The notes under the pieces: generated by a model
Told to the model about the DNA's origin: nothing
The model's database searches: none
Seen by the model: only the letters and a program-made list of their open reading frames with translations
Shown here: positions 35,029-63,345 of the stretch, piece after piece
How positions within the stretch are numbered: the first letter of the stretch is position 1
Layout of the letters: each line of letters starts with the position of its first letter
Source of the DNA: Pseudomonas putida
Lineage (GTDB): Bacteria; Pseudomonadota; Gammaproteobacteria; Pseudomonadales; Pseudomonadaceae
Length of the DNA: 64,000 nucleotides
Direction: 5' to 3'
Assembly (NCBI RefSeq): GCF_016406145.1
Contig: NZ_CP066306.1
Location: 62,001-126,000 of the forward strand
Program-made: the position numbers and the translations under genes

Positions 35029-35586
35029 ATGGTGAGCAGTTGGCGTGTGCAACAAGCCGCGCGTGAGATTCGGGCCGGTGCGGTGATCGCCTACCCGACT
35101 GAAGCGGTCTGGGGCCTGGGCTGCGACCCATGGAACGAGGACGCGGTGTATCGCTTGCTGGCGCTCAAGTCGCGGCCTGTGGATAAAGGGCTGATCCTGG
35201 TCGCCGACAACATCCGCCAGTTCGACTTTCTGTTCGAGGATTTCCCCGAGGACTGGATCGACCGCATGGGCAGCACCTGGCCTGGGCCCAATACCTGGCT
35301 GGTGCCGCACCAGGACCTGTTGCCGGAGTGGGTGACGGGGCAGCATGACACCGTGGCACTGCGGGTCAGTGATCACCCGCAGGTGCGCGAGTTGTGCGCG
35401 CTGGTCGGGCCGTTGATTTCCACTTCTTGCAACCCGGGCGGGCGCCCGGCGGCGAAGAGCCGGTTGCGAGTGGAGCAGTATTTTCATGGTGACCTGGACA
35501 TGGTGCTGGGTGGGGCCCTGGGTGGGCGGAAGAATCCGAGTGTGATTCGTAACCTGGCCACGGGCGAGATCGTCCGCCCGGGTTGA
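35029..35586 (+). CDS. tsaC: Threonylcarbamoyl-AMP synthase (YrdC/RimN)
   Basis: A 185-aa YrdC-fold enzyme of the t6A37 tRNA modification pathway. [24 protein letters not shown] N-terminus ([20 protein letters not shown]), [13 protein letters not shown], the PGPNTWLVP loop and [21 protein letters not shown] lies 12 bp before ATG 35029. Usual partner of dprA in gamma-proteobacteria. Confidence 0.95.
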
Positions 35587-35593
35587 CGCTGGC

Positions 35594-35683
35594 GAGGGCT
35601 GCGCCCTCGAATCGCCGGCAAGCCGGCTCCCACTGGAATTGTGTGGGAGCCGGCTTGCCGGCGAATGGGCCGCAAAGCGGCCC
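35594..35683. repeat. Pair of REP elements in inverted orientation
   Basis: Two REP cores face each other: ATCGCCGGCAAGCCGGCTCC and GGGAGCCGGCTTGCCGGCGA, each with its accessory stem (GAGGGCTGCGCCCTC and GGGCCGCAAAGCGGCCC). A BIME-like unit after tsaC that can form one long cruciform. Confidence 0.88.
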
Positions 35684-35756
35684 TGAATGCTGCCAGCACA
35701 TCAGTTTGGGAAAACTCCTACAACCCGCATCGAATACCATCACCTTCTCAGTGGGA

Positions 35757-35960
35757 AGTCCTGTCTCTAGGCTTCAGACCGTCGCCGAACAACTTGGCGA
35801 TCGGGTGTGGTAGCCCGGATGCATCATTTCCATGACAGTCTATGGCGGCTGTGCGCGGGAGGCTTTCGAGCCTGCCTGGATTGGAAAATGCCCGGGTCTA
35901 CCACCTCGCGGACAGTCGCCACCCAATTCACGTGGTAGTGATTGGTAGCGGCATTGAGGA
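35757..35960 (+). ncRNA. Highly structured leader upstream of the DUF3077 gene
   Basis: This gene-free stretch can form several helices. Hairpin 1: 35782-35786 with 35796-35800. Helix A: 35807-35818 with 35892-35904, 12 pairs with a single bulged base. Helix B: 35844-35859 with 35905-35920, 16 positions with one mismatch and two wobbles. Hairpin 2 inside B: AGGCT-TTCG-AGCCT (35860-35873), a UUCG tetraloop. Helices A and B cross, so they form a pseudoknot or exclude each other. The ribosome site (GAGGAG, about 35955) lies just beyond. It may be a cis-regulatory RNA or a separate small RNA; no known riboswitch class is recognised. Confidence 0.6.
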
Positions 35961-35969
35961 GCATTTTCC

Positions 35970-36272
35970 ATGATCAAGAAACTCGTCCCAGATCCACCAC
36001 TTCCCTGCACTTCCACCCGCCCCTTCGGCCGCTGCGACGCCGGCCATTCAGCGCTGTTCACCGTAAACCCCGACATTTCCGCCGCAGACGCCTTGGTCCA
36101 CGTAGCCCTCTACCTGCGCTGTGCCTACGAGACTGGCTACAAGACCCTCGATTACCTGCGCGAAGAAGGCCGCGGCATGTACTGGTCGAACCTGCATGCG
36201 ATCGAGATGGCGGAGGGGTTGGTAGAGGCGATGCTTGATGGCATCGAGTCAGCGCCTGCGCAGCAGAGGTAG
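35970..36272 (+). CDS. DUF3077-family small protein
   Basis: A 100-aa soluble protein with the DUF3077 pattern: LFTVNPDISAADALVHVALY, then a helical pair LRCAYETGYKTLDYLREEG and LHAIEMAEGLVEAMLDGIE. The family occurs in many copies in Pseudomonas and has no assigned function. AGGAG is well placed before ATG. It is isolated, preceded by the structured leader and a REP pair. Confidence 0.85.
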   Translation: MIKKLVPDPPLPCTSTRPFGRCDAGHSALFTVNPDISAADALVHVALYLRCAYETGYKTLDYLREEGRGMYWSNLHAIEMAEGLVEAMLDGIESAPAQQR

Positions 36273-36322
36273 TTGTGAGGCTTGCAGGTGCTCGCCTTGG
36301 TTTTTGCATTCTTGCGTAGAAC

Positions 36323-36344
36323 GAGCGCCGTCCGCACGGCGCTC
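36323..36344. terminator. Hairpin between convergent DUF3077 and qor genes
   Basis: GAGCGCCGT-CCGC-ACGGCGCTC, a 9-bp perfect stem. No T tract; likely limits read-through in both directions. Confidence 0.5.
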
Positions 36345-36379
36345 TATCTCAAAGGCTCTAAAAGCTCCAAGCCAGGCAC

Positions 36380-37357
36380 TCAAGGCAACAAAACAGTCGA
36401 CCCCACCGTCCGCCGCGCCGACAGCTCGCTCTGCGCCTTGGCCGCCTCACTCAACGGATACCGCTGCTGGATATCCACAACCACCTTGCCACTGGCGATC
36501 ACCGCAAACAGGTCATCCGCCATGGCCTGGGTGTTCTCGGCATTGTTGGCATAACTGGCCAAGGTCGGCCGTGTGACATACAGCGACCCTTTCTGCGCCA
36601 GGATCCCCAGGTTCACCCCGCTCACGGCGCCCGACGCATTGCCAAAGCTCACCATCAAGCCGCGCGGTTGCAGGCAGTCCAGCGAGGTCAGCCAAGTGTC
36701 GGCACCCACGCCGTCATACACCACCGGGCATTTCTTGCCATCGGTCAGCTCCAGCACGCGCTTGGCCACATCCTCGCGGCTGTAGTCAATGGTCTCCCAG
36801 GCGCCCAGTGCCTTGGCCCGCTCTGCTTTCTCGGCCGAACTGACGGTACCGATCAGCTTGGCCCCCAGCGCCTTGGCCCATTGGCATGCCAGCGAGCCCA
36901 CCCCCCCGGCGGCGGCGTGGAACAGGATCACATCGCCCGGCTGCACGGCGTAGGTCTGCTTGAGCAGGTACTGCACGGTCAGGCCCTTGAGCATCACCGC
37001 CGCCGCCTGCTCGAAGCTGATGTTGTCGGGCAGCTTGACCAGGTTGGCCTCCGGCAAGGTGTGCACCTCGCTGTAGGCACCCAGCGGGCCGCCGCCATAG
37101 GCCACGCGGTCGCCCACTTTCAGGCGGGTGACGCCCTCACCTACCGCCTCGACTACCCCGGCACCCTCGGTGCCCAGGCATGAAGGCAGCGCAGGCGGGG
37201 CATACAGCCCGCTGCGGAAATAGGTGTCGATGAAGTTCAAACCGATCGCATGGTTACGCACTCGGACCTGCTGCGCCCCGGGCGGTGCCGGGTCGAACTC
37301 CACCAGCTGCAATACTTCCGGGCCGCCATGCTGGCTGAACTGGATACGCTTGGCCAT
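36380..37357 (-). CDS. qor: NADPH:quinone oxidoreductase, zeta-crystallin type
   Basis: A 325-aa MDR-superfamily enzyme without zinc ligands. It has AKRIQFSQHGGPEVLQLVEF, the cofactor motif HAAAGGVGSLACQWAKALGA (about 150-170) and TVSSAEKAERAKALGA for NADP binding. Start 37357 has AGGAG 11 bases upstream. One-electron reduction of quinones is the family role. Divergent from hemF. Confidence 0.93.
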   Translation of the reverse strand: MAKRIQFSQHGGPEVLQLVEFDPAPPGAQQVRVRNHAIGLNFIDTYFRSGLYAPPALPSCLGTEGAGVVEAVGEGVTRLKVGDRVAYGGGPLGAYSEVHTLPEANLVKLPDNISFEQAAAVMLKGLTVQYLLKQTYAVQPGDVILFHAAAGGVGSLACQWAKALGAKLIGTVSSAEKAERAKALGAWETIDYSREDVAKRVLELTDGKKCPVVYDGVGADTWLTSLDCLQPRGLMVSFGNASGAVSGVNLGILAQKGSLYVTRPTLASYANNAENTQAMADDLFAVIASGKVVVDIQQRYPLSEAAKAQSELSARRTVGSTVLLP

Positions 37358-61818: not shown

Positions 61819-63345
61819 GTGAACATTACACAGTTGAAAGCGGCCTTGCCGCGAGAATTGCTGGCGTCGGTTGTGGTTTTTTTGGTGGCCCTGCCCTTGT
61901 GCATGGGCATTGCGATCGCTTCGGGCATGCCACCTGCCAAAGGCCTGATAACCGGCATCATCGGCGGTATCGTGGTGGGCTTTCTGGCCGGTTCGCCACT
62001 GCAGGTCAGTGGCCCTGCTGCGGGCTTGGCCGTGCTGGTGTACGAACTGGTGCGCCAACACGGCGTGGCGATGCTCGGGCCGATCCTGCTGCTGGCGGGT
62101 TTGTTGCAATTGCTGGCCGGGCGCTTGCGCTTGGGCTGCTGGTTCCGCGTCACCGCCCCGGCGGTGGTGTACGGCATGCTGGCAGGTATCGGTGTGCTGA
62201 TCGTGCTGTCACAAGTGCATGTGATGTTCGACACGGCGCCGCAGCCTTCGGGCTTGCAAAACCTTATCGGGTTCCCCGCTACAGTGGCTAGCGCCCTGCC
62301 CTTTGAGAGTGCCGGCAGCGGCTGGCAGGCCGGCCTGCTCGGTTTGGGGACCATCGCTGTGATGTGGGGTTGGGAACGCTTGCGGCCTCAGCGTTTGCGG
62401 TTTGTACCTGGGGCCTTGCTCGGTGTTGCGGGGATGACGCTGCTCAGCATGTGGCTGGCACTGCCCGTCAATCGTGTGCAGGTGCCGGCGGACTTGTCTG
62501 AGGCCATCGACTGGCTGCGCCCCGAAGATTTGCTGCAAATGGCTGACCCGACCTTGCTGGTGGCCGCCTTCGCACTGGCTTTCATTGCCAGTGCCGAAAC
62601 CCTGTTGTCTGCCGCTGCGGTGGACCGCATGCACAGCGGTCAGCGCTCGGACTTCGACCGTGAACTCTCCGCGCAAGGGATCGGCAACATGCTGTGCGGT
62701 GTACTGGGCGCGCTGCCAATGACCGGAGTGATCGTACGCAGTTCGGCCAATGTGCAGGCAGGCGCGCAAACCCGTGCATCGGCGATTCTCCATGGCTTGT
62801 GGCTGTTGGCTTTCGTGGTGGTCTTGAGCAGTGTGCTGCAGCAGATCCCGGTGGCAAGCCTGGCGGGTGTGCTGGTTTACACCGGTATCAAGCTGGTGGA
62901 CTTCAAGGCCTTTCGCGGGCTTGGCCGCTACGGTCGCATGCCTATGTTCACCTATGCAGCTACCGCGCTGGCGATCATCTTCACTGACCTGCTGACCGGT
63001 GTGCTGCTGGGCTTTGCCCTGACGCTGCTAAAGCTGGCACTCAAAGCAGCCCGCCTGAAGATCAACCTGCTCAGCCTGGACCGGCCGGGGCATATGGAGC
63101 TGCGGCTCACGGGCGCCGCCACCTTCCTCAAGGTGCCGGCACTGACCCAGGTGCTGGAAACGGTACCCCCTGGCACACAGCTGCACGTACCGCTGGCCAA
63201 CCTGAGTTACATCGACCACTCGGTGCTGGAGTTACTGGAGGACTGGGGGCGTACTCAGCGCAGCGGTGGTTCACGCCTGATCATCGAGCCCCGTGGACTC
63301 AAGCGGCGTATCGAGGGGGGCTTGCGCACTGCGGCAGAGTGTTGA
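61819..63345 (+). CDS. SulP-family transporter, probable bicarbonate carrier
   Basis: A 508-aa carrier. Start is GTG 61819 (MNITQLKAALPRELLASVVV) with AAAGGAG upstream. Eleven to twelve helices with VALPLCMGIAIASGMPPAKG and SGPAAGLAVLVYELVRQHG, FIASAETLLSAAAVDRMHSG, and a C-terminal STAS domain (about 420-508, LHVPLANLSYIDHSVLELLE). Pairing with the carbonic anhydrase gene suggests bicarbonate transport, as with BicA-like proteins; sulfate is the other option. Confidence 0.88.
   Translation: MNITQLKAALPRELLASVVVFLVALPLCMGIAIASGMPPAKGLITGIIGGIVVGFLAGSPLQVSGPAAGLAVLVYELVRQHGVAMLGPILLLAGLLQLLAGRLRLGCWFRVTAPAVVYGMLAGIGVLIVLSQVHVMFDTAPQPSGLQNLIGFPATVASALPFESAGSGWQAGLLGLGTIAVMWGWERLRPQRLRFVPGALLGVAGMTLLSMWLALPVNRVQVPADLSEAIDWLRPEDLLQMADPTLLVAAFALAFIASAETLLSAAAVDRMHSGQRSDFDRELSAQGIGNMLCGVLGALPMTGVIVRSSANVQAGAQTRASAILHGLWLLAFVVVLSSVLQQIPVASLAGVLVYTGIKLVDFKAFRGLGRYGRMPMFTYAATALAIIFTDLLTGVLLGFALTLLKLALKAARLKINLLSLDRPGHMELRLTGAATFLKVPALTQVLETVPPGTQLHVPLANLSYIDHSVLELLEDWGRTQRSGGSRLIIEPRGLKRRIEGGLRTAAEC

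Follow-up and report, generated by a model that had tools for sequence, protein, structure and literature searches.

A structured leader between tsaC and qor of Pseudomonas putida is best read as a C4 antisense RNA gene with its own target sites

The structured leader that precedes a small open reading frame, ORF1, in the window (the whole stretch of 64,000 nucleotides analysed here, positions 62,001 to 126,000 of Pseudomonas putida contig NZ_CP066306.1) is best read as a gene for a C4-family antisense RNA, accompanied by its target sites, rather than as a riboswitch-like leader. We consider it very probable that the C4 RNA is cut from this leader and silences its own downstream DUF6124-like gene in trans, through target pairs located upstream of and at the ribosome site; the processing, the trans-action and the function of the protein are what we infer beyond the RNA itself. 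The window unit belongs to a dispersed chromosomal C4 family in Pseudomonas, with up to about 50 RNAs per genome.

Results

The leader contains a C4 RNA and its targets

C4 antisense RNA (RF01695) is the sole curated-threshold Rfam match in the 64-kb window, scoring 64.1 bits at 35838–35926 against a cut-off of 45. A permissive Rfam search of 35580–36100 (521 bases) places a second family, c4-a1b1 (RF03163), at 35767–35821 with 36.6 bits, under its cut-off of 46.7 (E 1.1e-07), and the isrK model (RF01394) stays at 19.3 bits in the window, below its cut-off of 50. According to the available part of Weinberg et al. 2010 (PMC2864571), C4 and c4-a1b1 were catalogued in Proteobacteria and phages. 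A sequence-only reading of this DNA had proposed an undescribed RNA element. Judged by sequence, the structure is real and is no undescribed RNA class; since Rfam already holds C4, with its a1b1 targets as a second family, both a new RNA class and a riboswitch are ruled out. The unit consists of the following features.

35767–35821, plus strand: c4-a1b1-like segment with a hairpin and the a1 target (RF03163, below cut-off).
35782–35800, plus strand: upstream hairpin TCGCC/GGCGA, seen in the sequence, within the RF03163 match.
35807–35813, plus strand: a1 target GTGGTAG, left arm of helix A (the helix continues to 35818); complement of a' at 35898–35904, with covariation.
35821–35832, plus strand: b1-like target GCATCATTTCCA, seen in the sequence, with a two-base bulge against b'; changes with b' in two orthologues, weak over all units.
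35838–35926, plus strand: C4 antisense RNA, Rfam extent (RF01695), with its core at 35843–35921.
G35844, plus strand: predicted mature 5' end of C4, by analogy with P1.
35843–35859, plus strand: 5' arm of the C4 basal stem (helix B), pairing with 35905–35921; covariation.
35860–35873, plus strand: C4 hairpin 1, AGGCT-UUCG-AGCCT, with a UUCG loop; sequence, fold and covariation.
35880–35891, plus strand: b' loop of hairpin 2, ATTGGAAAATGC, 12 nt unpaired in the predicted fold, including a 10-nt exact complement of 35961–35970.
35898–35904, plus strand: a' segment CTACCAC, the unpaired 7-nt junction of C4 in the predicted fold, complementary to a1 and a2.
35905–35921, plus strand: 3' arm of the C4 basal stem (helix B); sequence, covariation and fold.
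35932–35938, plus strand: a2 target GTGGTAG, covarying with a'.
35956–35961, plus strand: Shine-Dalgarno sequence GAGGAG of ORF1, 8 bases before the ATG.
35961–35970, plus strand: b2 target GCATTTTCCA, exact 10-nt complement of part of b', running from the last Shine-Dalgarno base to the A of the ATG.
35970–36272, plus strand: ORF1, 100 aa, starting MIKKLVPDPP, DUF6124-like by its relatives and a PF19619 match below cut-off.

Folded in isolation, the core (35843–35921) reaches −42.8 kcal/mol compared with a shuffle mean of −30.16 (z −4.48; none of 200 dinucleotide shuffles as good). The whole leader (35757–35969) is less exceptional, with z −2.75 and 2 of 200 shuffles as good. The predicted core fold comprises a basal stem, the UUCG-type hairpin 1, a hairpin 2 carrying the b' loop and an unpaired a', which is the C4 architecture, and, as expected of a C4, a2 precedes the ribosome site of the following gene and b2 lies at it.

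The two long helices described in the sequence-only reading are present as it gave them. Helix A consists of 35807–35813 with 35898–35904 (7 pairs), a bulged T35897 and 35814–35818 with 35892–35896 (5 pairs), 12 pairs in total, and corresponds to a' paired with the upstream target a1. Helix B, the C4 basal stem, joins 35844–35859 to 35905–35920 with one G–G mismatch (35853/35911) and is lengthened by a T–A pair at 35843/35921. The same reading also correctly placed hairpin 1 inside helix B and noted the second hairpin at 35782–35800; the targets a2 and b2 were absent from its description. It had further suggested that the helices form either a pseudoknot or two exclusive states. The latter half fits the energy model, because in the whole leader the lowest-energy structure keeps helix A, prolonged into b1/b', at the cost of helix B; the pseudoknot half lies outside this model, which cannot draw pseudoknots.

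C4 RNAs pair privately with their own targets

We gathered 163 C4 matches from five genomes (27, 55, 42, 30 and 9; six of them, in two genomes, below the cut-off) and collapsed near-duplicates to 139 units, in which pairing with the own target was compared with permuted targets in 5000 permutations. Pairing of b' with the start region (z 27.0), of a' with a1 (z 25.5) and of a' with a2 (z 17.1) is reached in none of the 5000 permutations. Pairing of b' with b1 is weak (z 3.7; two permutations as high). Ranked against all 139 targets, the own one comes first for only 33 C4s by b, 25 by a1, 5 by b1, 3 by a2 and 49 by a2 and b2 together, an imperfect ranking because many units share an a core; the window C4 ranks its own b2 first. 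Perfect complementarity of a single 7-nt C4 core to both flanks occurs in 115 of 139 cognate combinations, compared with 909 of 19,182 non-cognate ones (4.7%) and none of 139 reversed targets. The strict test within genomes, which demands a perfect 7-nt a together with a perfect 7-nt b, is passed by 94 of 163 cognate combinations and by 7 of 6336 non-cognate ones, the cognate counts being 16/27, 35/55, 23/42, 14/30 and 6/9. As far as complementarity tells, the C4s thus mostly fit the targets of their own neighbouring gene.

Covariation among homologues, the check that the sequence-only reading had put forward, bears out both helices. In a MAFFT alignment of the 139 units with 200 shuffles, helix B has 95.9% of its cells paired and 131 both-side-changed cells (shuffle maximum 48), a'–a1, the seven core pairs of helix A, 93.0% and 259 (83), a'–a2 92.3% and 260 (87), and hairpin 1 96.8% and 251 (103); because the units share ancestry, the shuffles alone give no probability, and the non-cognate controls remove kinship only partly. 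The GGG/CCC extension of helix A (35814–35816) is unsupported by covariation in this alignment. By fixed alignment columns, b'–b2 covariation is likewise missing in the 139 units (0.407 compared with 0.408 in shuffles), which we attribute to the variable length of the loop, an alignment problem; for this pair our reading is based on the comparisons with permuted and non-cognate targets.

These pairings are consistent with the following mechanism. Transcription would start from a promoter upstream of 35767, and RNase P, by analogy with P1, would cut before G35844. Within the uncut precursor a1/b1 would hold a'/b'; since the full-leader fold pairs a1/b1 with a'/b', the energy model suggests that this precursor is inactive. 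The freed C4 would cover a2 and b2, so that ribosomes could not start on ORF1, and downstream transcription would perhaps be lost as well, as is the case in P1. Several observations speak against silencing in trans: a promoter and terminator scan of 35580–36400 found none, fixed columns yield no b'–b2 covariation, b'–b1 pairing is weak, the own target comes first in the ranking for a minority of C4s, 37 of the 163 matches lack the associated gene families described below and some look orphaned or decayed, and before cutting, the energy model gives helix A precedence over helix B.

This last point would suit a purely cis-acting leader switch, in which a1/b1–a'/b' pairing and the C4 fold together set ORF1 expression with no free antisense RNA. 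The whole-leader minimum-energy fold, in which a1/b1 are joined to a'/b' and helix B is lost, and an a'–a1 covariation as strong as that of a'–a2 are both in its favour. However, under such a switch a2 and b2 would have no part to play, despite their covariation or private pairing with the same segments, unless C4 also meets the downstream mRNA, and the P1 and Acinetobacter baumannii relatives are described as separate processed RNAs in the available text of PMC5320573; we therefore regard it as unlikely, and silencing in trans by a freed C4 remains the preferred reading.

In the interval from tsaC to the C4 unit, 35612–35664 form a perfect inverted repeat of 22 bp around a 9-nt loop, which looks like a REP palindrome of Pseudomonas. 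A motif resembling TTGGGAAA..TCCTAC is found repeatedly, in either orientation, 60–260 nt upstream of C4s in the own genome, with an instance in the window at 35707–35722 (TTGGGAAAACTCCTAC). The 7-mer TCCCAAA occurs in 13 of 27 upstream stretches of own-genome C4s compared with 2 of 54 background stretches, TCCTAC/GTAGGA occurs in 15 of the 27, and a stricter pattern of the motif is found in only 3 of 163 units. The recurrent motif may be a shared promoter part or an operator. The gap between a1 and C4 is mostly 22–30 nt in the own genome and 55–70 nt in two of the other genomes (G005 and G049).

The genes behind C4s are mostly DUF6124 and DUF3077

In the five genomes, 81 of 96 DUF6124, 36 of 40 DUF3077 and 12 of 17 Bro-N matches lie at most 1 kb downstream of a C4 on the same strand, for which the chance expectation is about 0.1–0.4%. 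At least one of the three families is found within 1 kb downstream of 126 of the 163 C4 matches. Among the remaining 37, the downstream products (or their first part) of four gave no Pfam family, and some C4 matches look orphaned or decayed. In the own genome all 18 DUF3077 matches stand behind a C4, in agreement with the earlier suggestion that the leader goes with DUF3077-type genes, and the usual unit there is a C4, a small ORF starting M(L/K)K(I/L)VPDPP and then DUF3077.

In the window the unit is flanked by the core genes tsaC and qor, and no DUF3077 gene follows: the gene after ORF1 is qor on the other strand, named from a reading of its product. The sequence-only reading had called the downstream gene itself DUF3077. 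ORF1 has no Pfam DUF3077 match at E 0.001 and gives only a weak DUF6124 match (PF19619, 24.5 bits, cut-off 27); some of its relatives are named DUF3077 in their sources, a name that Pfam does not support for ORF1 itself. A profile–profile comparison of ORF1 with a DUF3077 set gives a probability of 41. The predicted structure of ORF1 has a low-confidence N-terminus and a two-helix hairpin (mean pLDDT 79); in the model of a DUF3077 member (mean pLDDT 87) two strands are present in addition.

Pseudomonas is rich in both DUF3077 and DUF6124, which Pfam lists as of "unknown function". Fold searches of the PDB with ORF1 and DUF3077, and of a viral library with DUF3077, gave no match at E 0.001; a PDB sequence search with the DUF3077 alignment gave no relative at E 1, and at E 0.1 neither ORF1 nor the one DUF3077 protein compared had a PADLOC-DB family. 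A match to a PHROG family of unknown function was obtained for the DUF3077 protein, and a search with such a protein found one plasmid record and no phage record. Scanning viral contigs with ORF1 returned eight pattern-matching stretches, none confirmed as a relative. Outside Pseudomonas, three proteins behind C4s, chosen from 19 loci for their antirepressor-like appearance, belong to AntA, Phage_pRha and Bro-N, which are phage antirepressor or regulator families. From the analogy to Icd and Ant, as presented in the available part of PMC8198154, we infer that the ORF1 and DUF3077 proteins may have a toxic or antirepressor-like role. A possible phenotypic link for DUF3077 comes from furfural-adapted P. 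putida, which gained a base in the DUF3077 pseudogene PP_RS01475 and thereby, in the authors' view, regained a functional gene (PMC9630843, from the portion available).

C4 is a multi-copy chromosomal family in Pseudomonas

The own genome holds 27 C4 matches, all above the cut-off, that span positions 97,838 to 5,572,101 of the main contig. In a genus sample of 59 genomes, own included, 54 have a C4 match (53 above the cut-off), with a median of 17 and a maximum of 54 copies per genome; under laxer filters the richest genome has 55 matches, 52 of them above the cut-off. In a class sample, 18 of 274 genomes match, own included, and the other 17 hold at least 1–6 copies each, counts that are lower bounds because at most 15 candidates per genome were scored (the same search recovered 15 of the 27 own-genome C4s).

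Several loci differ from the usual unit. At G000:C1:4993654-4994255 (L029), three C4 matches lie close together, with at most one small ORF behind them; these orphan C4s are perhaps decoys or remnants. A 1.5-Mb genome of the same class (G319) carries six copies, four of them within 1.4 kb of one contig (L107), and a short ORF follows each copy examined there. A phage DNA search with the leader returned five records at E up to 1, the best being a Pseudomonas phage that holds a C4. In phage vB_Pae_U10 (L238), a 10-kb record with integrase and primase genes, C4 (80.5 bits) and c4-a1b1 (56.0 bits) lie at 2158–2360, inside a gene annotated as an excisionase; a phage of this kind is a possible satellite-type source of the chromosomal copies. 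Matches to isrK above the cut-off sit just upstream of C4 at five loci (L090, L097, L104, L106 and L238), and isrK and C4 may for this reason be parts of one leader.

Complementarity persists through sequence change at the tsaC–qor locus

The tsaC end was fetched for 30 of the 55 genomes with a match, and Rfam was run on 10 of these 30. A C4 is present at tsaC–qor in 3 of the 30: the own genome, G057 and G025. The G025 copy is more distant from tsaC, with other sequence in between, and the fetched stretch does not reach qor. The tsaC–qor gap is at most 383 bp in 21 genomes and exceeds 1.1 kb with no C4 in two; qor lies beyond the fetched stretch in four of the 30. C4-like regex matches in or before tsaC at several loci were set aside, Rfam having confirmed none in the loci tested.

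Among the three carriers, ORF1 is kept, with 80 of 95 and 70 of 91 residues identical to the window. The b' segment is TTGGAAAATGC in the window and AGATCT-bearing in G057 and G025, and the start region has changed in step, from GCATTTTCCATG in the window to GAGATCT...ATG in the other two; b1 follows the change of b' likewise. The pairs of a' with a1 and a2 read CTACCAC/GTGGTAG in the window and TTACCAC/GTGGTAA in G057 and G025. This joint change at one locus is the most direct evidence, at the level of sequence, that the pairing is selected.

The joint change also bears on whether C4 units are decaying remnants, scattered prophage or satellite leftovers with no present function. C4 comes from phages, outside Pseudomonas it precedes phage antirepressor-type genes, and some matches are gene-less or lie in gene-poor clusters, all of which would fit such leftovers. 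Decay is nevertheless hard to reconcile with a pairing kept through change at the same locus beside an open and similar ORF1, with covariation across 139 units and with the position of the window unit between core genes, and we judge it very unlikely. An origin as a small mobile element with an RNA leader, as the sequence-only reading had raised, is extremely unlikely: copy number is high and variable and the unit occupies tsaC–qor in 3 of 30 fetched genomes with no room in 21, but the window site bears no sign of mobility, unit-less genomes carry unrelated filler there rather than a clean empty site, the unit has no transposase-like gene, and the DUF3077 protein matches no phage and a single plasmid record.

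Discussion

Our analysis favours a C4 that is cut from its leader and silences its own neighbouring gene in trans. Extended to the family, the default state of the single small gene unit that each C4 copy controls (a DUF6124, DUF3077 or Bro-N antirepressor-like gene) would be off, and the Pseudomonas copies would be domesticated, largely non-cross-reacting versions of a phage immunity switch, present in dozens per chromosome. More tentatively, and with less than even confidence, we propose that a genome may hold up to about 50 mutually orthogonal C4–target pairs derived from a phage immunity RNA, each silencing its own toxin- or antirepressor-like gene as well as incoming copies of the same specificity, and that immunity between copies drives their diversification.

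A literature search that covered mostly titles and the beginnings of abstracts, and few subscription journals, returned no paper linking C4 with DUF3077 or DUF6124 or reporting C4 amplification in Pseudomonas. C4 itself is known, as are multi-copy chromosomal C4-type RNAs in A. baumannii (PMC5320573, available part); what appears to be new, in that we did not find it described, is a known RNA family in a self-targeting and much multiplied chromosomal setting. The link to C4 gives DUF3077 and DUF6124 a likely regulator and a likely origin in phage immunity operons. Furthermore, over a hundred natural antisense–target pairs on one scaffold would help to establish which bases determine RNA specificity.

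Among the closest known systems is the C4 of phages P1 and P7, encoded in the immI operon c4-icd-ant and represented by RF01695 and RF03163. The P1 record is annotated in the order a1, b1, C4 (77 nt), a2, b2, icd, ant1; there a1, a2 and b2 are exact complements of C4 stretches and b1 is off by one base. The Pseudomonas units share the C4 fold, the order a1–b1–C4–a2–b2–gene, an a' in a 7-nt segment and a b' loop whose partner lies at the first gene's start, and the P1 a' core CTGTCAA is also present in 14 of the 163 Pseudomonas units, including 9 in the own genome. In the account of PMC5320573, as far as available, C4 is released by RNase P as an RNA of about 77 nt, b' overlaps part of the ribosome site, specificity depends on a', and the P1 and P7 C4 RNAs are held distinct by a deviation of 4 nt. 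Unlike the phage system, with one C4 per phage, the Pseudomonas C4s are chromosomal, with up to 55 copies per genome, and the genes behind them are mostly DUF6124 or DUF3077. No icd or ant homologue lies behind the window C4: ORF1 gives no BLASTP alignment with P1 Icd, and the next gene is qor.

A different prophage RNA, IsrK of Salmonella Gifsy-1 (RF01394), is also encoded before an antirepressor operon, upstream of orf45-anrP, in which anrP is the antirepressor (PMC4825925). It resembles C4 in this placement, and isrK matches occur just upstream of C4 in other genomes and one phage. However, IsrK is reported to activate translation (PMC4825925), and the isrK score in the window is under the cut-off.

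A chromosomal counterpart is the C4-like "Group 1" of small RNAs in A. baumannii, of which the available text of PMC5320573 reports 21 in the chromosome of one genome, with a variable a' loop and reads that suggest processing from a longer transcript. Both systems have many chromosomal C4-type RNAs per genome. The targets in A. baumannii are left open in that text, whereas the predicted Pseudomonas targets are the flanks of the C4 and the start of the adjoining gene. The A. baumannii RNAs could share this arrangement, which can be checked directly.
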